Shown piece by piece: positions 18,227 to 54,695 of a DNA stretch of 64,000 bases. The position numbers were made by a program, and so were the translations under genes. Below the pieces are notes generated by a model. That model did not search any database. It was not told the origin of the DNA and worked only from the letters and a program-made list of their open reading frames with translations. Origin of the DNA: an uncultured Candidatus Saccharibacteria bacterium (GTDB taxonomy: Bacteria > Patescibacteriota > Saccharimonadia > Saccharimonadales > Saccharimonadaceae); assembly GCA_947166125.1 (NCBI GenBank), contig CAMVCW010000002.1, positions 1 to 64,000 on the forward strand, written 5' to 3'. Positions within the stretch are counted from its first letter, which is position 1, and each line of letters begins with the position of its first letter.

Positions 18227-19822
18227 ATGGGCCACAAAGTAAAACAAGCTTTAATGAGTAGTAGAATAGATTTCTTCTACTATACTTTCCGTAATGTGTT
18301 GTTAATTTCTGTTCCAGCCACCATAGTCTTCGCCTTAATATTGTCCTTGCCTCGCTCATCTGCACGTGTATCATCTAGCGATAATTTAGCTATTTCTGTT
18401 CCTAGCTCTTGCACTTTATCTAGTTCTGTAGATAGTGAGCATAGTGCCAGTATAGTAAATGGTAGATATGAAGAAGGCATAGGAACCACTACCTTATCTA
18501 CCTTTTGTAATGATAAAAATGGTTATAGTGTCTATGCTATTGGTGATAGTTTAAATAGTGAAGGTAATAATACATTGGTTGGTAGTAATGGTAGTAATAT
18601 AAGTAGTGGCACGGCTACTTCAGGTGATACATCTAACTGGGCTATGAAATTATCCCTAAAAGCAGGCGATACTTCTACTACTCCACCTAGTATTATAGAT
18701 CCATTTACTAATTATTCCACAGTCCCTACGTATTGGACTAGAGTAGCTACTATACCAGCTAGTACTACTGATATGGAGAAAGGTTCTAGCTTTACTACTA
18801 CTTATGCTACATATATCTCTCCTACTCAAGCTGCAGGCACATACTTAGGGCAAGTCAAGTATCTACTTACTCACCCTTCAACAGTTCCACCTACTAGTGC
18901 TTATATTATGCAGGAAGTAGCAGATTGGGAAGATGAGCTAACCAACGAAGGTGACTCTGTGATTGCTTTTGACAATAGAGATGGAAAATCTTATTGGGTG
19001 ACTAAGCTAAAGGATGGACATATCTGGATGACACAGAACTTAGACTTAGAGATAGGTGGCGCCAATACAGCCCCACTTAACTCCAATAATACAGACATTA
19101 GCGCCAGCGCATCCGGTAGTGGTATCTATACGGATGGCTACACTGAAAAGGATGGTGTTTGGACTTGGAATCCAGTCTCTACTGCTGTTACCTCCAATCA
19201 TGTAATATCTGGTACTAGTGTGCCAGCTTGGGGCAACAACTACACCACGCCATACTCGGCAGAGGGTGGTGATACTTATTACTACACTTCAAATACTACC
19301 GCTGACGATACTAGGTTTAACTCTCTCCAAGCCTGTAAAGATGCTAGTCACACAGAAGATGAGTGTAAACGTTACTTCGCCGGTAACTACTATAACTGGA
19401 CGGCGGCTATAGCTTCCAACAACTCTACTAATATAAGTACTACCGGAACTATAGCCTCTAACTCTATTTGTCCTAAAGGTTGGAGACTACCCAATGCTTC
19501 TCAAACAGATAACGTTAACAACGAATTTGGTAGGATGCTATATCAAGCTGAAATAACTGCTAAAGTATCTGCCGGTAACGATTCTGTAGGTTACGCGACG
19601 GGCGGTTTTAACAAATTACGTTCTAATCCATACTACTTTGTGCGGTCTGGCAGTATCGGTGGCGGCACCCTGAACTATCTCGGCGCCAGCGGCTTCTACT
19701 GGTCTAGTACGGTTAGCGGTAGTTCCTACGCTTACTCCCTGGAGCTTAATGGTACTGGTATCTACCCAGCCCGTAACCTTGGCAGGCACGGCGGGAGACC
19801 TGTACGCTGTGTTGCTCGCTGA
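18227..19822 (+). CDS. FISUMP-domain surface protein 1
   Basis: A 531-residue exported protein. The N-terminus MGHKVKQALMSSRIDFF is nearly the same as that of the 47394-49130 protein, and a membrane or signal helix follows (about 30-48). A Ser/Thr-rich, beta-type region (about 50-235) leads to a FISUMP-type C-terminal domain: DNRDGKSYWVTKLKDGHIW, CPKGWRLPN, FYWSSTVSG and the ending GGRPVRCVAR. FISUMP domains have a lectin-like fold and are common in surface proteins of host-associated bacteria; binding to a host cell is inferred. GAGG precedes the ATG. The gene is preceded by leader copy 1 and followed by a toxin-like gene. Confidence 0.88.
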   Translation: MGHKVKQALMSSRIDFFYYTFRNVLLISVPATIVFALILSLPRSSARVSSSDNLAISVPSSCTLSSSVDSEHSASIVNGRYEEGIGTTTLSTFCNDKNGYSVYAIGDSLNSEGNNTLVGSNGSNISSGTATSGDTSNWAMKLSLKAGDTSTTPPSIIDPFTNYSTVPTYWTRVATIPASTTDMEKGSSFTTTYATYISPTQAAGTYLGQVKYLLTHPSTVPPTSAYIMQEVADWEDELTNEGDSVIAFDNRDGKSYWVTKLKDGHIWMTQNLDLEIGGANTAPLNSNNTDISASASGSGIYTDGYTEKDGVWTWNPVSTAVTSNHVISGTSVPAWGNNYTTPYSAEGGDTYYYTSNTTADDTRFNSLQACKDASHTEDECKRYFAGNYYNWTAAIASNNSTNISTTGTIASNSICPKGWRLPNASQTDNVNNEFGRMLYQAEITAKVSAGNDSVGYATGGFNKLRSNPYYFVRSGSIGGGTLNYLGASGFYWSSTVSGSSYAYSLELNGTGIYPARNLGRHGGRPVRCVAR

Positions 19823-37174: not shown

Positions 37175-38650
37175 TCACCGCACCAAACACCGCACAGGAA
37201 GCCCAGCTCGACGACTAGTATAATTCCAAATGCTAACAAACGTACTTCCGAAACCAAAGTTGAAACCGTAAAATAAGGAATCCGAAGTGGAGGACCAATA
37301 TGCCCCATTTGAGTTTCCATTCCAATGGCGGGAAACATCATAGGCACCGGCTAGCAAAAAGTTCGGAATAGTAACCGTGCCGGCTTCATCGTAAAAAGTA
37401 TTAGTATAAGTTGTATTCTGGTTTTCAGTAGCCCCATACGCTACTGCCAATTGGTAAAAATCGGTAGATTGGTATGCCGGAGAATCCGGTGATCTTGAAT
37501 TTGGCATTTTCCACCCCGCAGGGCATATACTTGCAGGAGCATCGCTACCACCCTTAACTGTGCTTTTCAAAGATCCTATTGTTGCCGCCAACCAAGAATA
37601 GTAGCTATAGCAACCAGGGTTGGCACAATTATTCGTATCATTCCCAGTATTATATACGTAGGCCTGTGTGTTATCGCTAAATCCAGTTTGAGAAGATTCT
37701 GGCAACTTGTTTCCTTCTTGGAATCCATTAGCTGTGGGTAAAATGTAGTCTTCTGGCATATCGGATAGCCTGCTGGTAATTTCCGTTCCTCCAGCTAGAT
37801 TAAGATTCTCGGTCATCCATACTTTACCGTCTTTTAGCTTTGCTATAGTATATTCCTGATCGTCTCTTCTATCCAATTTAGTATAATTTGTTTCTGGTTT
37901 CATAGAGGATATTATATTATTTTTGTCTGCGCTAGCTAAATCGTCAAAATCTTGTAGATATATAATATCATCTATAGTTGGGGCAGGAGTAGCTCCCGGA
38001 TGCACCATAGTATACTTCACTGTACCAGCATAGGTACCTGCTGGTTGGGTAGAAGAAGCAGTGGCTTGGTAATGGGTTGTGATACTGGAACCAGTAGTAC
38101 TATCTGAATCGTTAGCAGTAACGTTATTATATGAAGCTACTTTGGTATAGGTAGATGGGATATTGTTATAGCTACTATAGTTATTTTCTATAGTAGGAGT
38201 GAAGTTATTCTCTACTGGTACTAGCTTCATTTTCCAACTACTACCGTTGTTACTATTACCGCTTCCTGTAGTATCACCATTGGTTTTAATGTTGTTAGCA
38301 CTAGTAGGCTCATTATTGTAAATTAAATCTGTATTGCCGTATTCATTATTACTGTACCCTATAGCATATACTGCATAACCACCGGGATCATTGCAGAAAG
38401 TAGTAAAGGTGCTACCAATTATTTCTACACTACTATTATTAGCTAGTATTCCATTATACTCACCAGAACCATTAGTTCTACTAAAACTACAGGCAGAAGA
38501 GACAGTGACTGAAGCGTTGGCAGAAGCAGAACCTTCTACAGCAGATACACTACCAAAAGATTGTGTAATAGATACTAATGTAGCTATAAAACAAAATAAA
38601 CTAAATACTGTTCTACATACATATTGATATCGTTTTATCTTGTCCCGCAT
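37175..38650 (-). CDS. FISUMP-domain surface protein 2
   Basis: A 491-residue exported protein with N-terminal membrane/signal helix (about 13-35), a Ser/Thr/Asn-rich middle part and a C-terminal FISUMP-type domain (LDRRDDQEYTIAKLKDGKVW, CPAGWKMPNS, GAYWSSTSDS, GLPVRCLVR). Related to proteins 1 and 3 but with a different N-terminus. CGAGGT precedes the ATG; leader copy 3 lies upstream. Confidence 0.87.
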   Translation of the reverse strand: MRDKIKRYQYVCRTVFSLFCFIATLVSITQSFGSVSAVEGSASANASVTVSSACSFSRTNGSGEYNGILANNSSVEIIGSTFTTFCNDPGGYAVYAIGYSNNEYGNTDLIYNNEPTSANNIKTNGDTTGSGNSNNGSSWKMKLVPVENNFTPTIENNYSSYNNIPSTYTKVASYNNVTANDSDSTTGSSITTHYQATASSTQPAGTYAGTVKYTMVHPGATPAPTIDDIIYLQDFDDLASADKNNIISSMKPETNYTKLDRRDDQEYTIAKLKDGKVWMTENLNLAGGTEITSRLSDMPEDYILPTANGFQEGNKLPESSQTGFSDNTQAYVYNTGNDTNNCANPGCYSYYSWLAATIGSLKSTVKGGSDAPASICPAGWKMPNSRSPDSPAYQSTDFYQLAVAYGATENQNTTYTNTFYDEAGTVTIPNFLLAGAYDVSRHWNGNSNGAYWSSTSDSLFYGFNFGFGSTFVSIWNYTSRRAGLPVRCLVR

Positions 38651-42178: not shown

Positions 42179-43081
42179 TCAGTCGGTATAGAACATGGGT
42201 CTCGAAACGAGGTCCAGGCGAATCTTTGCCGCCTTGAGCGTGATCACGGGGTATCTGGTGCCAGTAATCACTGCTTTTCCGGCGATTTTGCGCACTGCCT
42301 CTGTATATCTTGAACCTTTTTCCAGAATCAAATCGCGGAGAGTGGTTTTGCTCTTTGTCTTGGGCGTACCCAACAGACGATACCTCTCATCCGTGATTGT
42401 CCAGTAACACAGACGTAGTGCATGAACGATCTTATCTGCGCCGAACGGATTCCTGATCAGCAGATCCTTGTATGTTGGTTCTACATACACGTTTGGTTCG
42501 TTCTGAAGGTTGTCGAGCGCATCCACGAGGGCTGTCAACATTCTTACCTGGTCAGGGACATTAACGATGCTGATGACCTGCGCAATTTCTCGCACGTTGG
42601 TCGTTATCTTGGGTAATTTACCCTCGAGGAACTGCATTATGAGGTCATGAACCTCCGTTCCTCTTGAGTAGATCTCGACGGCCTCCACTATGGGGATTAA
42701 GCCGTCAGGCGGCAGGGCATCCTCGCCGTAGGCCGATTCGGCCGCCGGCTCCACCAGCAGTTCGCGCACGAGGAGCTGGTCGGTGTAGGTTTCGAACTCT
42801 TCGGATGTCATTTTCGAATCCTCGGAGATTACCCATTTTTTGTTCTTAAGCTGGAACGTGGCCAGTACACCAACCTTATCACCGAGCACAGTTCTCGTCT
42901 TGCCGTCTTTGCTCGTTTCAATGATGAGCTTTAACGGTTTACAATATTCCGTTCGGATCAGCTCCAAGATCTCCTTTGTCGCCAGTGTCAGCAGATCATT
43001 GTAAGCAGCGGAAACTACCCCCGCGTTAAACCTCTGTTCTTCTGACTGATTGTTTAAAATAACTTTATTATCCTTATCCAT
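42179..43081 (-). CDS. Hypothetical cytosolic protein
   Basis: Unrecognised, 300 residues, no signal or membrane helix. Alpha-helical with a beta N-terminal part. More GC-rich in the middle than its neighbours (42660-42790), which may signal transfer. It has an accessory-type start: CGGAGGTG before the ATG and a long leader from the promoter at 43132-43160. Confidence 0.7.
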   Translation of the reverse strand: MDKDNKVILNNQSEEQRFNAGVVSAAYNDLLTLATKEILELIRTEYCKPLKLIIETSKDGKTRTVLGDKVGVLATFQLKNKKWVISEDSKMTSEEFETYTDQLLVRELLVEPAAESAYGEDALPPDGLIPIVEAVEIYSRGTEVHDLIMQFLEGKLPKITTNVREIAQVISIVNVPDQVRMLTALVDALDNLQNEPNVYVEPTYKDLLIRNPFGADKIVHALRLCYWTITDERYRLLGTPKTKSKTTLRDLILEKGSRYTEAVRKIAGKAVITGTRYPVITLKAAKIRLDLVSRPMFYTD

Positions 43082-43348: not shown

Positions 43349-43831
43349 TTAGGCTTCTCTCTTGGCTAAGACCGCCGAAGAAAGATACATTACCAACGTC
43401 CCGGCAACTAGCGCGAGCGGCAAAAACTCTTCTGGGCCAGTGGATGGCATTTGCTCCGTAGTTGCTGTTACCGAAGTAGATTTTTGGGCAGCAGTCTTTT
43501 CTTCGGATTTTTTGCTTTCACTATTCGCTTTTTCCGTAGAAATGGTCCCTACTGCATTATTCTCTGCGGTTGTTGTATTTTTCTCGTCATCCTTTTTCTC
43601 TTCTTCTGTAGTGGTATTTTCTTCGGTCTTATTCTCGGTTGTCTGCTCGTTATTCTCTGCGATTTCAAACGTGGTATTTTCGCTATTATTTGCGGTATTG
43701 GTGCGACTAGATTTTTTGGTAGCCACTACGATAATTGCCACGATTAGAATCAAAATAATTGCTACTATTGCCGTAGCTGCGGCGATAATCTTGCGACGTT
43801 CCTTTTTCTCCACCTCTGTTTGTTGATACAT
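43349..43831 (-). CDS. Surface protein with sortase-type signal and Glu/Thr-rich stalk
   Basis: A 160-residue protein. N-terminal membrane helix (about 14-37), a low-complexity Thr/Glu/Asn/Lys stalk (about 40-125) and a C-terminal MPSTGPEE motif (LPxTG-like), hydrophobic helix and KREA tail. Either a two-pass membrane protein or a precursor cleaved by sortase; no sortase gene is in the window. AAGGAG precedes the ATG, with promoter TTGACA-N17-TATAAT at 43852-43880. Confidence 0.8.
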   Translation of the reverse strand: MYQQTEVEKKERRKIIAAATAIVAIILILIVAIIVVATKKSSRTNTANNSENTTFEIAENNEQTTENKTEENTTTEEEKKDDEKNTTTAENNAVGTISTEKANSESKKSEEKTAAQKSTSVTATTEQMPSTGPEEFLPLALVAGTLVMYLSSAVLAKREA

Positions 43832-43851
43832 AATAAACTCCTTATACTTCC

Positions 43852-43880
43852 ATTATACCACACTTTATGAAAAATGTCAA
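43852..43880 (-). promoter_or_regulatory. Consensus promoter of the 43349-43831 gene
   Basis: Minus strand TTGACA (43880-43875), 17-nt spacer, TATAAT (43857-43852). Confidence 0.85.
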
Positions 43881-43906
43881 CATAAGCACAATACCCTCTA
43901 ACAGAT

Positions 43907-43938
43907 GAAAAACCGATGCGTCATGGATGCATCGGTTT
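43907..43938 (-). terminator. Terminator of LuxS homologue 3
   Basis: AACCGATGC (43929-43937 complement) pairs with GCATCGGTT (43911-43919), followed by TTTTC on the minus strand. Confidence 0.8.
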
Positions 43939-44331
43939 GTGGAGAAGTACGTGGTAATCTGCCGCGTACATCTTGGCGCCCAGCAAATCTGGCTTCATGA
44001 GCGAATCGGTTGGGTCAACCCTGTCGGTTTTGATGATGAATCCACACAAAGATTCAACCAGGTCAAAAATCCTTTCATAACTAGCTACTTTTCCTACTAT
44101 AAAGTAGAATCCGTTGTCTCGTCTAGATGGACGAAAACTTATGATTCTATCTTTTCTGTAGCGTTGATCGGAAAAGAATATATTTCCCAGATATCTAATT
44201 GTTTCAGCGGTATCATGAGTCATGTCCCTACCTTGGTAGCCAACAAACTCTAGATAAAAACGTTCCACTGTGCGATGTTTGTAATGGCGTTTTCCGCAAG
44301 AATATATTCCTGACGCAATCTGTTTTTTCAT
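43921..44331 (-). CDS. LuxS homologue 3, zinc site and catalytic Cys lost
   Basis: 136 residues. The fold alignment to LuxS is readable from RFYLEFV through AETIRYLGNIFF, FRPSRRDNGFYF and DLLGAKMYAADY. The zinc motif HxxEH is replaced by ETIRY (about 43-47) and MGCRTGFY by SRRDNGFY, and no Cys stands at the third zinc position. It cannot work as an S-ribosylhomocysteinase. Start at 44331 because TAGGAGAGG lies 4 nt before it. Own promoter at 44383-44411. Could be a regulatory or structural relic still under expression control. Confidence 0.72.
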   Translation of the reverse strand: MKKQIASGIYSCGKRHYKHRTVERFYLEFVGYQGRDMTHDTAETIRYLGNIFFSDQRYRKDRIISFRPSRRDNGFYFIVGKVASYERIFDLVESLCGFIIKTDRVDPTDSLMKPDLLGAKMYAADYHVLLHKPMHP

Positions 44332-44382
44332 TATACCTCTCCTAAGGTGCAAATTTCGAGTTTACGCTCGATACGTCCATCA

Positions 44383-44411
44383 ATAATAGCATAAAAATTA
44401 AAATAATTCAA
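44383..44411 (-). promoter_or_regulatory. Promoter of LuxS homologue 3
   Basis: Minus strand TTGAAT (44411-44406), 17-nt spacer, TATTAT (44388-44383). Confidence 0.75.
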
Positions 44412-44437
44412 GAAAAAGGCCAGCACTTGGTGCTGGC
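44412..44437 (-). terminator. Terminator of FISUMP-like protein C
   Basis: GCCAGCAC/GTGCTGGC stem (44419-44437) followed by CTTTTTCTT on the minus strand. Confidence 0.85.
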
Positions 44438-44449
44438 TATGGGTTGGTT

Positions 44450-44998
44450 TTAGTCATGAACTAGGCGAATACTGTGTCCACAACTACGGTTAAACGTTCG
44501 AATTTCAGGTTTTTTGGTCATATAAACAACGAGGCTGTAGGTGTAATTATTGGTGCCGTCATCGTTTATTAGCCAGAATCGACCCTCAATCATTTTGTCG
44601 ACAACGAGGCTAGCGACGATTTCTCGGTCTGTTGGACAGTAGTTGTATATACGCATGCTCGGATAAATGTAGCCATCAAGCTTCAGGCCAAGCTGCGCCA
44701 TGATCTTGCCGCTCGGATTGACGAGATTCTTACCTGTAAATTCTGTCAACCAAGCCCCGGCTTCCGTTACGGTAGGCAGTCGCCAACCTTCCGGAAAATA
44801 GCCCTGCTCCTGAAGAGCTTCTGCTTCGTCCAGGGTGAAGAACTCCTTGCCGGCGTGCAAGATAGTGGCTTCGTCGGGGTCGCCACTTTTGTCTACGCCA
44901 GTCAGAATAATCTCCTTCTCTAAGACGAAATTTTCCGGAGCCACAATGGGTCCGGCCTGTGTTCTCTTGCCATCTTCGATCCATCTGAAAATGTTCAT
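44450..44998 (-). CDS. Cytosolic FISUMP-like protein C
   Basis: 182 residues, no signal peptide. The FISUMP skeleton is visible: PEGWRLPTVTEAGAWL, IEGRFWLINDDG and the ending CGHSIRLVHD. AAGGAG precedes the ATG and a consensus promoter drives it. One of four such short cytosolic proteins here (A-D). Function unknown. Confidence 0.75.
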   Translation of the reverse strand: MNIFRWIEDGKRTQAGPIVAPENFVLEKEIILTGVDKSGDPDEATILHAGKEFFTLDEAEALQEQGYFPEGWRLPTVTEAGAWLTEFTGKNLVNPSGKIMAQLGLKLDGYIYPSMRIYNYCPTDREIVASLVVDKMIEGRFWLINDDGTNNYTYSLVVYMTKKPEIRTFNRSCGHSIRLVHD

Positions 44999-45064
44999 TT
45001 TAATCTCCTTAATGTACGAATTTCAGAATTCCGTCTGATACGGGTGAATTGCTATCACACTACA

Positions 45065-45093
45065 ATTATATCATACTTATGATAAAAAGTCAA
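45065..45093 (-). promoter_or_regulatory. Promoter of FISUMP-like protein C
   Basis: Minus strand TTGACT (45093-45088), 17-nt spacer, TATAAT (45070-45065). Confidence 0.8.
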
Positions 45094-45102
45094 TTAAAAG
45101 CA

Positions 45103-45131
45103 AGAAAAAGGCCAGCACCGTAGCGCTGGCC
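45103..45131 (-). terminator. Terminator of the LuxS2/FISUMP-B operon
   Basis: GGCCAGC (45110-45116) with GCTGGCC (45125-45131), then CTTTTTCTT on the minus strand. Confidence 0.85.
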
Positions 45132-45140
45132 TTAAGGAGA

Positions 45141-45641
45141 CTAGAGGTTTTTAACGAGTAGCAAAGGTAGACCGTAACCCATGCAATACTTTGTTATATT
45201 GATTTGTGACCCAGAAACCTCCAGTAAGGAAGCAGAAGTGGATATAGGCATACACTCCAACCAATAGCAGCCAGTTATTCCCCGGTGTGCAACATAGTGG
45301 CCAAATCCTGTGGGGCAGTATTTGTATGCCACCATGTTGGATGGAATTATATATCCATCATGTCCAAGTACTATTTTGCTAAACCGACAGGCATTATGGA
45401 GCTCCTTAATCTTTTCGGCTTCGGCCGGTTTCATCATTCGCCAGCCGGCTGGGACGTTGCGGTTTTCCACTAATTGATGCGCCGTTTTCCAGTCGAAATA
45501 CTGCGCACCCTCCATCACGGCTTTGCCGTTTTGGAAATAGATTCTCTCCGTTACCCGGAAGATCTCCGGAGCAATCATAATGCCGACGCCGGGCAATTTA
45601 ATCGCCTTCTGTTCCCAGTTGCTGCCATACGGAATTTTCAT
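45141..45641 (-). CDS. Cytosolic FISUMP-like protein B
   Basis: 166 residues, no signal peptide. PAGWRMMKPAEAEKI, TGCYWLEC and YGLPLLLVKNL follow the FISUMP order. AAAGGAGGG precedes the ATG, and the gene begins inside the 3' end of LuxS homologue 2, so the pair is translated together. Closest to protein A (shared ending GLPLxLVKxL). Confidence 0.75.
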   Translation of the reverse strand: MKIPYGSNWEQKAIKLPGVGIMIAPEIFRVTERIYFQNGKAVMEGAQYFDWKTAHQLVENRNVPAGWRMMKPAEAEKIKELHNACRFSKIVLGHDGYIIPSNMVAYKYCPTGFGHYVAHRGITGCYWLECMPISTSASLLEVSGSQINITKYCMGYGLPLLLVKNL

Positions 45642-46119
45642 TGTAGCCCTCCTTTACAGGGTATTCAAAATGCGGTTTCTTGAGTTCGTGTAAATACCTC
45701 GCGGCCCACTCTTTGGCGCCAGCCAGATCATGTTCTTTGTAATTACTGCACTCCCTAGCATTGGTGCCAGGGATTTCTCCTTCAAAATCAATGATGAATT
45801 TCAGCATTGATTTTATCGTCAAGAAAATCGGCGATTCCTTGTGCAGGGGATTTTGCCAACCGGATACTATCAAGTAGAACCCAGTTCTGCTACTCATCGG
45901 ACCGAAATAAATCAGTTCGATACTGTGAGCCTCTCGGCTTCTCAGATAAAAATTGCCGAGATGCTCGATAGTATGCATTGCTGGTGACGGCAGATAGACA
46001 CCGTGGTTAGGGCGGACGAATCTTAAATCGAGAGTAGTGGTATCATGACTGTGCTGGAAGATATACACTCCCGGGCGTAATCTAGTACAATCTACCTCAA
46101 ATTTCTTCATTCCCTTCAA
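45598..46119 (-). CDS. LuxS homologue 2, zinc site kept, catalytic Cys lost
   Basis: 173 residues. The order of LuxS blocks is complete: FEVDCT (His to Cys), TTLDLRFVRPN, HTIEHL (zinc ligands His49 and His53), GPMSSRTGFYL and ARECSNY (Cys124, third zinc ligand). The catalytic Cys of MGCRTGFY is Ser77 here. It should bind metal but not carry out the normal reaction. The TTG at 46119 is spaced 7 nt from GGAGAGG; an ATG at 46110 is the alternative. Confidence 0.8.
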   Translation of the reverse strand: MKGMKKFEVDCTRLRPGVYIFQHSHDTTTLDLRFVRPNHGVYLPSPAMHTIEHLGNFYLRSREAHSIELIYFGPMSSRTGFYLIVSGWQNPLHKESPIFLTIKSMLKFIIDFEGEIPGTNARECSNYKEHDLAGAKEWAARYLHELKKPHFEYPVKEGYNENSVWQQLGTEGD

Positions 46120-46179
46120 TCATATTCCTCTCCTTTCAAAGTACATAGTTTAAGGCCGTGACCTATAAAATACTAAATA

Positions 46180-46208
46180 ATAATACCATATTTTTGGTTA
46201 AAAAGCAA
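46180..46208 (-). promoter_or_regulatory. Promoter of the LuxS2/FISUMP-B operon
   Basis: Minus strand TTGCTT (46208-46203), 17-nt spacer, TATTAT (46185-46180). Confidence 0.7.
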
Positions 46209-46243
46209 TGTCAGCAGATCCTGAGAATAGCTTTTTAAAAACA

Positions 46244-46271
46244 AGAAAATAGCCGACACTTAGTGTCGGCT
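46244..46271 (-). terminator. Terminator of the LuxS1/FISUMP-A operon
   Basis: AGCCGACACT (46251-46260) with AGTGTCGGCT (46262-46271), then ATTTTCTT on the minus strand. Confidence 0.8.
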
Positions 46272-46280
46272 AGAGAGAGA

Positions 46281-46775
46281 CTAAAGATCTTTTACCAACA
46301 TAAGTGGCAAACCGCAACCAATATGTAGATACGAGTCGGCGTTTAAAACCCTTTTACCGCTAATGATTACGTAGGCGTACAACTCGCTGACAAAATCGCT
46401 AGTCCAGCAGTAGCCGAAAGCCCCGTGTTGCATAACCTCAACGGCTAGTGAATGTTGGTATCTGGCCATGTCATTTAACCCCACATAACCGTCAAGCCCG
46501 AAAACCTTGCGACCAACTTCGGTGCCAGTAAATAATTTGGCAATTTTCTGACCTTCTTCTCTGCTGGGCAGTCGCCAGCCCGCAGGTGTTTTCTTGGCTT
46601 TTATCAAGTCATTTGCCACGGTTAGGGGAAAGTATTTGGTACCTTTTAGTACCTTCTTATTGTCCTCAAGTAAAATATCACGCGAGGGGACGAACGGTTC
46701 CGGTGCCACGCCAATTCCGGCAGTTTCAAACTCAATTCCGGTTCCCCATTTTTTTGCTAAATCTGTCTTTGCCAC
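46281..46775 (-). CDS. Cytosolic FISUMP-like protein A
   Basis: 164 residues from a GTG start. PAGWRLPSREEGQKIA, FGYCWTSDFV and CGLPLMLVKDL give the FISUMP skeleton. The frame is open upstream to 46901, but GAAGGAGGA lies 9 nt before the GTG and overlaps the luxS stop, so the GTG is preferred. Co-transcribed with the intact luxS. Confidence 0.75.
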   Translation of the reverse strand: MAKTDLAKKWGTGIEFETAGIGVAPEPFVPSRDILLEDNKKVLKGTKYFPLTVANDLIKAKKTPAGWRLPSREEGQKIAKLFTGTEVGRKVFGLDGYVGLNDMARYQHSLAVEVMQHGAFGYCWTSDFVSELYAYVIISGKRVLNADSYLHIGCGLPLMLVKDL

Positions 46776-46780
46776 CGTGC

Positions 46781-47299
46781 TTATTCCTCCTTCGTGTTGA
46801 GTATGGGATATTCGAAACACGGGTCGTGGAGTAATGACTTCAGGTATTTTCTGGTATGACGTTTGGCCGCGGATAAATCGTGTTCCTGCCAGTTGCCACA
46901 TTCCTGAGGCGAAGCGCCGGGTATGCGTCCATCAAACTGAACAATGAAATTGCAAAGATCTATCACTAGACGGTGCGTAACATTGTTCAGCGCCGGTGGC
47001 CAGTAGTCAGCCATTGATAGATAAAACCCGGTTCGACAGCCCATTGGGCTAAAGTCGATAACCTTATCTCGGTGCTCTGAGTGATTACGTAGGAAGATAG
47101 TACCTAGATGCTCAATCGTATGAAGAGCTTTGGGGCCGATGACCTTAGTAGCAAACATGCCACCGCGGTTTGGTTTGACGAACCGCAAATCTAAAATGGT
47201 AACCATAGATTCGGGGTCAGGAAAGCGAAATTCCCTTGCGGTGTAAATTCCGGGCTTGAGCTTGGTGTGATCCACCTGGAAGCTAGGAATTTTATCCAT
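46781..47299 (-). CDS. luxS: S-ribosylhomocysteine lyase (LuxS)
   Basis: 172 residues with a complete LuxS active site: FQVDHT (His11), TILDLRFVKPN, zinc ligands His60 and His64 in HTIEHL with Glu63, catalytic Cys88 in SPMGCRTGFYLS and Cys134 in PQECGNWQEHDL. LuxS cleaves S-ribosylhomocysteine to homocysteine and DPD, the precursor of autoinducer-2. No SAH nucleosidase, methionine synthase or other cycle gene is in the window. AAAAGGAGAG precedes the ATG. First gene of a two-gene operon with FISUMP-like protein A. Confidence 0.93.
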   Translation of the reverse strand: MDKIPSFQVDHTKLKPGIYTAREFRFPDPESMVTILDLRFVKPNRGGMFATKVIGPKALHTIEHLGTIFLRNHSEHRDKVIDFSPMGCRTGFYLSMADYWPPALNNVTHRLVIDLCNFIVQFDGRIPGASPQECGNWQEHDLSAAKRHTRKYLKSLLHDPCFEYPILNTKEE

Positions 47300-47363
47300 T
47301 TTTCTTCTCTCCTTTTAATGTACAGATTCCGGATACCGCCGGTACGGGTATAAATACTTACTA

Positions 47364-47393: not shown

Positions 47394-49130
47394 CTAGCGT
47401 GCCACGCATCGCACGGGTCTCCCGCCACTTTTCCAGCCGTCGCCGCCACTACCGTAAGCATTATAATCAGTATTGACGTAGTTGGTAAAGAGAACCATGA
47501 CATAGGCAGTAACGCCATCACTAACCGTATTGGACCAATAGGTCGCCTTAAAGCCTGGGTTGCTAAGACCGCCATCAATAGCAAAACCAGACTGCACAAA
47601 CCACAGAGGAGCAGAAATGAGTTTAAAATCAGTATTGCCACCGTCATTGTAGAGATAGTTCAACCTGCCAAATTCCCCCTTAGAATTTGGTCGTGAATGC
47701 GCATCTTCCCCATTAGGTTTTGCTATGGTAGGCAACCTCCATCCTTTAGGGCAAATAGAGTTTTGTGGATTATTATTCACATTGCTATATGTGCTAACGG
47801 TAAGAGAACTACTATCATCACTAGCTATAGCGGCAGACCAGTTATAATAATTGCCTACGGATAGATGTTTGTTAACATTAGTTTTGTCTTGTGTAAAATG
47901 CGTACAACCAGCACTTGTATTGAGATAATTACAGTTTGGCGTAGTATCATCTCCATCCCAATACCACTCACCTGGATCCAAGGAATAGGCTATATTAGTA
48001 TTACTGGCCCATGGAGTACCAGTACTATGTTGATAATCTCTGGTAATATTAGTGGGGCCCCAAGAGATTATATTGGTCTCCAGGTTATAGCTATACCCTT
48101 CTCCATAGGCTCCAGCAAGCGATCTATCGTTTAAATCCGTATCCTCAGAAGTAAGCACTGTGGTATCTATACCTAGAGCTGCATCTTTTACGCCTAGGTC
48201 CAAGTCTAGATTTTGTGTCATCCAGCAATGTCCATCTTTTAGTTTGGCCACCCAATAAATCTTATTATCTCTATCATCTACTAATTGTATCTCATCATAC
48301 CCTGGATTATCATTGGGTGTTACTGCATCACAAATACTACTATTCATATCTTGCATTTTGTAGAAATCACCAGTTTGTCCAGTTACTGGATCTACCACGC
48401 CTATCTTCTTGCTTTTTCCAGCACTAGCAAATGCACTTTCTAATGTAGTAGTAGGTAGTACTGTAGTAGCAGAAGGATGCAGCATTACATACTTTACTTG
48501 TCCACTATAAATACCTGCTGGTTGTCCTGGCGTGGTATATACACCATAAGTAGTAGTAAAGATAGAAGTAGCAGTACTATTAGTAGCTGTACTAGCACTT
48601 CTATACACTACTTTAGTCCAATTATTAGGTACTGGCACATATTTATTATCATAATCACTTACTATAGTAGGAGGAAAAGTACTAGCACCAAGACTTAACT
48701 TCATCGCCCAGCTAGAGTCTCCATTACTACTAGGAATATTACCAGTCTTAATATCATAATTGGATCCTAGGCTAGAAGCTAATACCACTTCACCATTATT
48801 ATTCTGTGTAGTACCTTTAGCGTAAACTATATAACCATCCTTATCATTACATATCGTATTAATTTCTGTAGTACCAATATCTCTAAGTTCTTGTCCACTG
48901 ACCATACTGGCAGTATGTTCCGCTGTAACATTGCCAGACAAAGTACAAGAAGTGGGTAAATTAATCCTAACACTGTCTGCAGAACTATTCATTGCAGAAG
49001 AACGGAAAGAAGCTAATAATACAGCAGAGATAGCTAAGATGGGTAAACTAACTAAAAGAATATTGCGGAAAGCATAGTAGAAGAAATCTATTCTACTACT
49101 CATTAAAGATTGTTTTACTTTGTGGCCCAT
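47394..49130 (-). CDS. FISUMP-domain surface protein 3
   Basis: 578 residues. N-terminus MGHKVKQSLMSSRIDFFYY is nearly identical to surface protein 1, followed by a membrane/signal helix (about 28-48), a Ser/Thr-rich beta region and a FISUMP-type C-terminus (VDDRDNKIYWVAKLKDGHCW, CPKGWRLPT, ATYWSNTVSD, GGRPVRCVAR). The segment before the final motif is rich in Tyr, Asn, Gly and Asp (YVNTDYNAYGSGGDGW), as in variable lectin loops. Leader copy 2 lies upstream; GAGGT precedes the ATG. Confidence 0.88.
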   Translation of the reverse strand: MGHKVKQSLMSSRIDFFYYAFRNILLVSLPILAISAVLLASFRSSAMNSSADSVRINLPTSCTLSGNVTAEHTASMVSGQELRDIGTTEINTICNDKDGYIVYAKGTTQNNNGEVVLASSLGSNYDIKTGNIPSSNGDSSWAMKLSLGASTFPPTIVSDYDNKYVPVPNNWTKVVYRSASTATNSTATSIFTTTYGVYTTPGQPAGIYSGQVKYVMLHPSATTVLPTTTLESAFASAGKSKKIGVVDPVTGQTGDFYKMQDMNSSICDAVTPNDNPGYDEIQLVDDRDNKIYWVAKLKDGHCWMTQNLDLDLGVKDAALGIDTTVLTSEDTDLNDRSLAGAYGEGYSYNLETNIISWGPTNITRDYQHSTGTPWASNTNIAYSLDPGEWYWDGDDTTPNCNYLNTSAGCTHFTQDKTNVNKHLSVGNYYNWSAAIASDDSSSLTVSTYSNVNNNPQNSICPKGWRLPTIAKPNGEDAHSRPNSKGEFGRLNYLYNDGGNTDFKLISAPLWFVQSGFAIDGGLSNPGFKATYWSNTVSDGVTAYVMVLFTNYVNTDYNAYGSGGDGWKSGGRPVRCVAR

Positions 49131-49365: not shown

Positions 49366-49890
49366 TTACTTTGTGTAAATAGAGATCCTTGCGGCCGCAT
49401 ACTTACGCGTTTTTTGTAGAATTAATCCATTTATCTCTGGTGCCTCCCCAGGATGAGAAAGCGTAAAAACTCCACCTTTTTTCAAAAACTTCGCTAAATT
49501 TTCTATGCCCCGCAGGTCAAAATTATCGTACGGTGGGTCCGCCAGTATCACACCAAAATCCCTGGGTGGCAAGAAATTTTTTGCATCCCACTCAGACACG
49601 CTGGCTTGCTCAGCTAGGCCTAATTCGGCTAGATTTTTACGGATTACTCCAGTAATGCGCGGATTTTTCTCTACAAACATTGCATAGCTCGCTCCGCGCG
49701 ATAAAGCTTCTATCCCTAGTGCCCCGGAGCCAGCATAAGCATCCAGTACTACTGCCCTAGGCAGGTATTCAGAAATCATGTTAAATAGTGCCAGCTTTTC
49801 CCTGGCCCCCATAGGATGGGTGAGTCTAGAATTAGGCGATTTGATACTTCTGCCCCGATATTTTCCAGATGTAATTTTGATATTATCCAT
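49366..49890 (-). CDS. rsmD: 16S rRNA (guanine966-N2)-methyltransferase RsmD
   Basis: 174 residues. SAM-binding VLDAYAGSGALGIEALSRGA and catalytic DPPYDN. Start at 49890 (MDNIKITSGKYRGRSIKSP, the usual RsmD beginning), with TATAGA ending 7 nt upstream; the longer frame to 49923 is less likely. Confidence 0.94.
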   Translation of the reverse strand: MDNIKITSGKYRGRSIKSPNSRLTHPMGAREKLALFNMISEYLPRAVVLDAYAGSGALGIEALSRGASYAMFVEKNPRITGVIRKNLAELGLAEQASVSEWDAKNFLPPRDFGVILADPPYDNFDLRGIENLAKFLKKGGVFTLSHPGEAPEINGLILQKTRKYAAARISIYTK

Positions 49891-49927
49891 AAATAAGTCT
49901 ATAAACAAACAATATAATTGCATATTA

Positions 49928-54090: not shown

Positions 54091-54149
54091 TAACTAAGAT
54101 TGTTGAATATTGGGCGAATTCAAAAATTGTACCTTAAGGAGGTGAAAAT

Positions 54150-54695
54150 ATGAAATATCCATCAATCTGTTTCGATCGTTTCAAAATGCCAGGGTTTGCA
54201 ATCGCTACAACGGACTTATGTCATACAGACGATTTGGCAAAATATTGCAGGTATACGAAGGGCAAGAAATACTTCTCTTACGAAGAAGCTATGCTTCTTA
54301 TAGACTTCCTAAATTCTGGCTGTCCAACCGGTGGCTATGATTTTGCTCTTCCTACGGATCAGGAATTTGAACAAATTATCGCTAAATATGGCTATAAAGA
54401 TGGCATTTGTCATAGCTATAACCTGGCTACAGCACTCGGTCTCGGATTTTACGGCTCAATCGGTATTCTTACTGCACTAGAAGAATATAATAAGTCTCCG
54501 CTAGACTTTACTTACCGTCAAGCTATTGCCTATGGTGTCACCGGGCATTACTGGTGCAAAGGTACTGGCGAATACGAGGGTCAAGCCAGCATCTTATGTA
54601 TGAATTCGTGCGGCGAGCCTACGTTTATCAGAAATGTTCTTGATAATGGCAAACACATCGGTTGCTCAGTTCGATTAATCGGCAGACCATGGTAG
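54150..54695 (+). CDS. Cytosolic FISUMP-like protein D
   Basis: 181 residues, no signal peptide. GGYDFALPTDQEFEQI, TGHYWCKGTG and HIGCSVRLIG give the FISUMP order. A perfect AAGGAGGTG precedes the ATG. Unlike A-C it has no LuxS partner and sits beside the DUF5680 pair. Confidence 0.75.
   Translation: MKYPSICFDRFKMPGFAIATTDLCHTDDLAKYCRYTKGKKYFSYEEAMLLIDFLNSGCPTGGYDFALPTDQEFEQIIAKYGYKDGICHSYNLATALGLGFYGSIGILTALEEYNKSPLDFTYRQAIAYGVTGHYWCKGTGEYEGQASILCMNSCGEPTFIRNVLDNGKHIGCSVRLIGRPW

Follow-up and report, generated by a model that had tools for sequence, protein, structure and literature searches.

LuxS, the enzyme that cleaves S-ribosylhomocysteine (SRH), has hitherto been treated as a single-copy and strictly conserved protein. 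A survey from 2004 found one luxS gene per genome (PMC524169), the enzyme is a homodimer (PMC5029033), and in Candidatus Gracilibacteria, members of the Candidate Phyla Radiation (CPR), the pfs and luxS genes are adjacent (PMC7567580). For Saccharimonadia-like epibionts, only the LuxS of the host had previously been implicated (PMC6166536, PMC7567580). Here, we analyzed a locus of a Saccharimonadia-like genome (G000, with 8 contigs totalling 816,580 bases and a completeness of 98.8%; its size and genes hint at Saccharimonadia) that contains three LuxS homologues in tandem, LuxS1 to LuxS3. They are located in a stretch of 64,000 nucleotides (bases 1-64000 of contig 2), which we call the window. 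The genome-wide reading covered 813 of the 816.6 kb in stretches of up to 20 kb, and a search of the genome did not reveal a fourth LuxS copy. We consider it probable, although by no means certain, that an acquired LuxS family has split into one enzyme, LuxS1, and two non-catalytic proteins, LuxS2 and LuxS3, which are kept by selection and tied to small neighbouring proteins, named F proteins here. The three homologues are listed below; residue numbers follow B. subtilis LuxS throughout.

46781-47299, minus strand: LuxS1, an intact S-ribosylhomocysteine lyase homologue (PF02664, residue table, PDB match).
45598-46119, minus strand: LuxS2, a predicted LuxS pseudoenzyme (PF02664, orthologues, dN/dS).
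43921-44331, minus strand: LuxS3, a LuxS fold with zero active-site residues (hhalign, AF2/PDB, orthologues, dN/dS).

When scored against PF02664 (LuxS; cut-off 27 bits), LuxS1, LuxS2 and LuxS3 obtained 148, 127 and 24-25 bits, respectively. LuxS1 has the residues of all catalytic and zinc-binding positions (S6, F7, H11, R39, H54, E57, H58, C84 and C126, of which H54, H58 and C126 are the zinc ligands), and matches PDB entry 1inn with an E value of 4e-24. LuxS2, which matches LuxS structures in the PDB with an E value of 1e-15, retains F7, R39, H54, E57, H58 and C126, that is, the zinc ligands and Glu57, as well as the loop Thr-Gly, and carries the substitutions S6K, H11C and C84S; its C126 is followed by Ser127. 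In LuxS3, the N-terminal segment from S6 to H11 is gone, and the other positions are occupied by E39, E54, R57, Y58, R84 and, in the column aligned with 126, a Thr. An earlier sequence-only reading of the window had proposed both the three tandem homologues and a graded loss of their active sites. The follow-up bears this out: all three open reading frames (ORFs) lie on the minus strand at the proposed positions, and the residue table runs from the full set in LuxS1, through a LuxS2 without C84 and H11 but with its zinc ligands, to none in LuxS3.

Because its Pfam score is just below the cut-off, the identity of LuxS3 was checked independently. Profile comparison with hhalign aligned the set of LuxS3 orthologues with canonical LuxS over 119 columns (98.3%, E 2.6e-14). 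The AlphaFold2 (AF2) model of LuxS3 has a predicted local distance difference test (pLDDT) score of 86.9 and a predicted template modelling (pTM) score of 0.84, with an input alignment that contained LuxS relatives. All 18 of the 18 PDB matches of this model under an E value of 0.001 are LuxS structures, with template modelling (TM) scores of about 0.75, and in VIA the best 14 entries are also LuxS (Z 13.8-16.0), the next one being PqqF, an M16-type peptidase, with a Z of 7.7. The homology of LuxS3 to LuxS is secure. The possibility that it belongs to another family, which the sequence-only reading had left to a structure comparison, is ruled out by the profile comparison and by the structural matches.

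In a phylum sample of 379 genomes, LuxS was detected in the window genome only; 4 of the 245 genomes in a family sample had LuxS over the cut-off, and a LuxS-type match was present in 11 of 174 genomes of the genus. The genus genomes reveal that the interval between the rsmD-like gene and the LPXTG gene is a variable locus. In G301 it contains one intact LuxS. Genomes G349 and G359 have LuxS2-F2, F3 and LuxS3 at this position, with LuxS1 absent, and G266 has two F genes and a LuxS3 shortened by a large in-frame deletion. A LuxS with Ser84 and Tyr58 is accompanied by an F gene in G175. The locus of G342 contains an F gene and a LuxS2-like copy (Ser84, CSN), whose frame is interrupted at an A8 run, and that of G248 a LuxS copy that lacks the N-terminus and carries H58Y. 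Relatives in which all copies are intact would have refuted the sequence-only reading, but the same dead copies recur in G349, G359 and others. K6, C11 and S84 of LuxS2 are unchanged in three genomes (G000 and the orthologues in G349 and G359), with a further relative in G342, and LuxS3 orthologues are present in G349, G359 and G266.

The orthologues allowed us to calculate ratios of nonsynonymous to synonymous substitution rates (dN/dS), which were 0.11-0.14 for LuxS2 and 0.07-0.31 for LuxS3 (dS was saturated in one further pair), 0.10-0.21 for F2 and 0.22-0.32 for F3. Every one of these ratios has p < 1e-3, and those of the two dead LuxS copies range from p 9e-4 to 2e-19. Since the ratios are well below 1, LuxS2 and LuxS3 are maintained proteins; that the dead copies are real, conserved genes is thus upheld by orthologues with the same substitutions in other species. 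Some of the relatives might be taken as signs that tandem duplication left LuxS2 and LuxS3 as ordinary pseudogenes that are beginning to decay, with only LuxS1 being important, namely the interrupted copy of G342, the N-terminally truncated one of G248 and the LuxS3 deletion of G266. This explanation is strongly disfavoured and has very little probability in our view. Besides the highly significant dN/dS values of both copies, the frames, Shine-Dalgarno (SD) sequences and leaders are intact in three genomes for LuxS2 and in four for LuxS3, and the same or similar substitutions are fixed in all of these. Pseudogene decay as the main story is rejected on dN/dS.

The dS in the LuxS/F block is often above that of flanking genes. 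When G266 is compared with the others, dS is 1.5-3 or saturated at LuxS3 and the LPXTG gene, and 0.09-0.20 at 42179-43081; between G266 and G000, it is about 3 for LuxS3 and 0.20 for the neighbouring 42179-43081 gene. This contrast, drawn from loci L038, L031 and L032 and window positions 43349-44998, points to exchange or replacement of alleles at the locus.

LuxS active sites lie at the homodimer interface, and LuxS2 and LuxS3 might therefore act as regulatory subunits (prozymes), pairing with LuxS1 in heterodimers and thereby modulating its activity. The homodimeric nature of LuxS, the retained fold and the tandem placement in the window would fit such a role. Against it, G349 and G359 (83-87% complete) have LuxS2 and LuxS3 without LuxS1 at an intact contiguous locus, and G266 and G175 (98% complete) hold dead copies only. 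An active LuxS partner is therefore not required, and we regard the prozyme role as very unlikely.

For LuxS2 alone, two other functions were considered, each of them unlikely in our estimation. One is a changed chemistry, in which the zinc site would act together with Ser84 and Cys11 on another substrate. The zinc ligands, Glu57, Arg39 and the loop Thr-Gly are indeed unchanged in three genomes, and H11C and C84S are both fixed, but the replacement of the catalytic Cys by Ser and the loss of S6 and H11 should abolish the known reaction. Moreover, nothing of the site is left in LuxS3 at this locus, so a shared reason for the retention of these genes is not to be sought in catalysis. The other is that LuxS2 is a sensor or sink, which would bind but not cleave SRH or a related sugar-thioether. 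Laboratory Cys84 mutants of LuxS have been used to trap the substrate or an intermediate, and LuxS2 resembles these mutants and retains the zinc site. This role is opposed by the alteration of two more pocket residues (S6K, H11C) and by several carriers without detectable Pfs to make SRH (G342, G349 and G359, the last two being incomplete). The sequence-only reading had suggested that the duplicates may bind the substrate or act on a host; for LuxS3, in which no pocket residue remains, SRH binding of the LuxS kind is unlikely.

Concerning LuxS1, we searched for the enzymes of the SAM (S-adenosylmethionine) and SAH (S-adenosylhomocysteine) pathway. MetK of G000 scored 285 bits, slightly below its cut-off of 309 and above the Pfam cut-off, and a SAM-I riboswitch (RF00162, 55.6 bits) is located directly before the short metK (L043 3448-3542, on G000:C3). 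A Pfs-like protein has MTA/SAH nucleosidase (MTA, methylthioadenosine) as its best match and is also above the Pfam cut-off; its gene (G000:C2:145089-145754) is inserted between rplK and rplA, and it is found beside rplK in G175 too. MetE (PF01717) and MetH/BhmT/MmuM (PF02574) were detected in none of the 11 LuxS carriers, and neither was SahH; the positive controls worked in both cases. LuxS1 thus has its upstream pathway, given the MetK and Pfs-like genes, and since no homocysteine remethylation enzyme was found, the route would be linear and not a cycle. LuxS1 probably ends a linear route from SAH to homocysteine and DPD (4,5-dihydroxy-2,3-pentanedione). Borrelia burgdorferi is a comparable case of an unclosed route. 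The sequence-only reading had not expected a methyl cycle in a reduced epibiont; this is correct as far as remethylation and SahH are concerned, but not for MetK, with its SAM-I riboswitch, and the Pfs-like protein, which are present.

Each LuxS of the window adjoins a small gene for a predicted lectin-fold protein, a feature that the sequence-only reading did not mention. The F genes of the genome are as follows.

46281-46775, minus strand: F1, a small protein with a predicted C-type-lectin fold, FISUMP-like (ORF, weak Fib_succ_major match, F family alignment).
45141-45641, minus strand: F2, the predicted lectin-fold partner gene of LuxS2 (AF2 fold, dN/dS).
44450-44998, minus strand: F3, a predicted lectin-fold gene in a separate transcription unit (FISUMP TIGR02145, dN/dS).
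54150-54695, plus strand: Fx, the fourth stand-alone F family member and the last one of the genome; a related leader is located at 54105-54141.

F1, F2 and F3 are 164-182 aa long and share roughly 28-31% identity. The GTG start of F1 is 5 nt past the LuxS1 stop, and the start of F2 overlaps the 3' end of LuxS2 by 44 bp. The AF2 model of F2 (pLDDT 89.4) has Bd2740 (8oks, Z 8.7) and the C-terminal domain of Legionella Lcl (8q4e, Z 8.5) as top matches, and nearly all further structure matches are C-type lectins; the Foldseek E values of the model are modest (0.02-0.04). Weak FISUMP and Lcl_C profile matches agree with this fold: F1 matches Fib_succ_major with an E value of 0.005 and F3 matches FISUMP TIGR02145 with 1.6e-5, both below the curated Pfam/NCBIfam cut-offs (18 bits against 34, and 26 bits against 42). 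Taken together, the model and the profiles indicate a C-type-lectin fold for the F proteins. F genes are present in 16 of the 174 genus genomes. A diversity-generating retroelement behind the F genes was considered and dropped, as blastn found no F repeat in the genome; a reverse transcriptase search was not made.

LuxS1, F3 and LuxS3 are also connected by a 40-nt element at their 5' sides, which comprises CCGUA, a hairpin of 4-5 bp with a loop starting with CGG, AAUUUGYACNUUA and the SD (layout CCGUA-stem-CGGAA-stem'-AAUUUGYACNUUA-SD).

47311-47348, minus strand: predicted pseudoknot leader of LuxS1 (model R1, 42 bits, E 1.2e-7).
45005-45044, minus strand: predicted pseudoknot leader of F3 (model R1, 51 bits, E 5e-10).
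44339-44377, minus strand: predicted pseudoknot leader of LuxS3 (model R1, 55 bits, E 4e-11).

The hairpin is paired in 44 of 44 alignment cells, and in 25 of 27 cells the loop could also pair with the upstream CCG/ACG, to which it is complementary; the latter pairing would give a compact H-type pseudoknot. Overall, pairing is present in 92% of cells, compared with no more than 43% in slid alignments, and 7 of 8 pairs show compensatory changes. The covariation score is 0.62, compared with 0.33 for shuffled and at most 0.17 for slid alignments, in a small alignment of related rows. The covariance model matched G000 only before LuxS3, F3 and LuxS1, with a weaker match before Fx; LuxS2 has a related, weaker leader of its own. 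Among the 174 genus genomes, every match with E < 1e-5 precedes a LuxS or F gene; several of these matches were in the model. Comparison with Rfam gave no family at the position of the leader with E <= 0.5, and the scan of the window lists only a tRNA.

Weaker matches of the leader model before other genes have the GCACUUUAGGAGG tail in common, so part of the leader is more widespread. Loci L205 and L208-L211 of other genus genomes have a hairpin followed by AAAUUUYGYACUUUAGGAGG before unrelated genes (DegV-like, membrane and lipoprotein genes), which suggests that the genus has a wider class of such leaders. The same tail, GCACATTAGGAGG, also precedes the start of a 91-aa gene at G000:C1:139431 on the minus strand (MGPKTLNVSLSSHGYSMELDI...).

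Intact LuxS genes are also found outside the variable locus, beside tsf (G181 and G210), between uvrB and gatC (G304) and at a second site in G342 (G342b). Six divergent LuxS proteins of the genus (LuxS1 and five others) retain every catalytic residue. Next to the tsf-linked LuxS of G210 (L039 3559-4861) and G181 (L040 3989-5296) are three small proteins (104-109 aa) that appear to be related to one another; at least two have their own hairpin leader and terminator. With the G301 copy as the query, the nearest named relatives were gut and rumen bacteria of the Clostridia and Treponema, at 45-57% identity. The intact G342b LuxS (L037 5680-6204) clusters with Ruminococcus-type sequences with full support and is a separate, more recent transfer into the genus. 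One origin for all other tested genus copies is not rejected (p-AU 0.46), and in the donor phylogeny the copies of the locus are on long branches, without an exact placement of the donor. The best reading of the locus is a LuxS family acquired laterally.

The minus-strand order of the locus is the rsmD-like gene, a FISUMP surface protein gene (47394-49130), LuxS1-F1, LuxS2-F2, F3, LuxS3 and a membrane protein gene, and its borders are as follows.

49366-49923, minus strand: rsmD-like methyltransferase, the conserved left border of the variable locus.
43349-43831, minus strand: membrane protein with a weak LPXTG-type anchor, the conserved right border, also found in G175, G248, G266, G301, G342, G349 and G359.

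An assembly artefact is ruled out because the separate assemblies G349 and G359 have the same gene order. Strong terminators follow F1, F2 and F3. The sequence-only reading had given each LuxS copy its own strong promoter and SD; the SDs are good, and F3 can fairly be said to have a strong promoter (11/12 consensus, extended -10), but this is less true of the LuxS units, for which 9/12 sites or none are listed. Searches for a defence or phage origin gave no PADLOC or PHROG match for any LuxS or F protein, and phage records contained few LuxS-like matches, among them a Salmonella chromosome and metagenomic records without annotation. FISUMP surface proteins form a large family with at least about 15 copies by blastn (e.g., 47394-49130, 18227-19822, 37175-38650 and on other contigs), many of which have nearly identical first 70-90 bp and variable C-termini.

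We propose that MetK would produce SAM, that methyltransferases would leave SAH and that Pfs would cleave it. LuxS1, judged by its residues most likely a working S-ribosylhomocysteine lyase, would then convert SRH into homocysteine and DPD (AI-2, autoinducer-2), as linear disposal and possibly signalling. LuxS2, which we infer to be inactive, and LuxS3 would be pseudoenzymes with a preserved LuxS fold. Neither is expected to catalyse the reaction, and both would be under purifying selection for a different, non-catalytic role, most likely binding or scaffolding in common with the adjacent F proteins. The connection of LuxS with F is drawn from the neighbourhood, the partly shared operons and the common 5' pseudoknot leader. 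The broken copies are found again in related species, where strong selection preserves them unaltered, so the LuxS shape appears to have been put to new use next to a small lectin-shaped partner. A more far-reaching reading, which we think distinctly unlikely, is that a metabolic enzyme from gut bacteria has become a non-catalytic protein module of an ultra-small epibiont. The pseudoenzymes would then act together with the lectin-fold F proteins in interactions with a host or neighbour, switched by a new mini-pseudoknot RNA sensing a metabolite of the SAM/SAH pathway.

The main proposal is also supported by the enrichment, among LuxS-type carriers of the genus, of F genes (7/11 LuxS carriers vs 9/163 others, Fisher p 3.7e-6) and of Pfs-type proteins (6/11 vs 17/163, p 8e-4). 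Several points weigh against it. Both enrichments are uncorrected for relatedness, and the Pfs-like match has 97 bits against an NCBIfam cut-off of 169. The dN/dS values are pairwise Nei-Gojobori estimates with few species behind the pairs, and there is some decay at the locus, since the copies of G342, with its A8 frame interruption, and G248, with its lost N-terminus and H58Y, look broken. Intact LuxS at other sites (G181, G304, G342b) is without an adjacent F. Finally, a physical LuxS-F interaction is guessed from gene neighbourhood only, and its purpose is inferred.

In the open-access literature, which gives weak evidence on this point, we found no description of LuxS pseudoenzymes or of LuxS duplication with a change of the catalytic cysteine; as far as this search shows, conserved LuxS pseudoenzymes would be undescribed. 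They would offer a small, expressible system for studying roles of the LuxS fold beyond catalysis, and the presence of both an intact LuxS1 and Pfs leads to the testable prediction that a Saccharimonadia-like epibiont produces AI-2. Among the described systems, the locus is close to LuxS of the Clostridia-Treponema-Coriobacteriia branch (PF02664; NCBIfam PRK02260, best subtype 1-4), and the active site is complete in LuxS1 and in five further copies from the genus, but the locus differs from typical LuxS by the loss of catalytic residues in LuxS2 and LuxS3, by its three tandem copies and by its presence in a Saccharimonadia-like genome. The F proteins have the fold of Fib_succ_major/FISUMP (PF09603, TIGR02145) and Lcl_C (PF07603), as predicted from the models and profiles above, but stand alone as proteins of 164-182 aa, in which inspection by eye showed no clear signal peptide or membrane anchor. 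The window genome resembles the Gracilibacteria in being a CPR genome with Pfs and LuxS in which the intact copy keeps its catalytic residues. It differs from them in belonging to another lineage, in having Pfs unlinked (between rplK and rplA), and in its extra copies, the putative pseudoenzymes, with a predicted lectin-fold partner.

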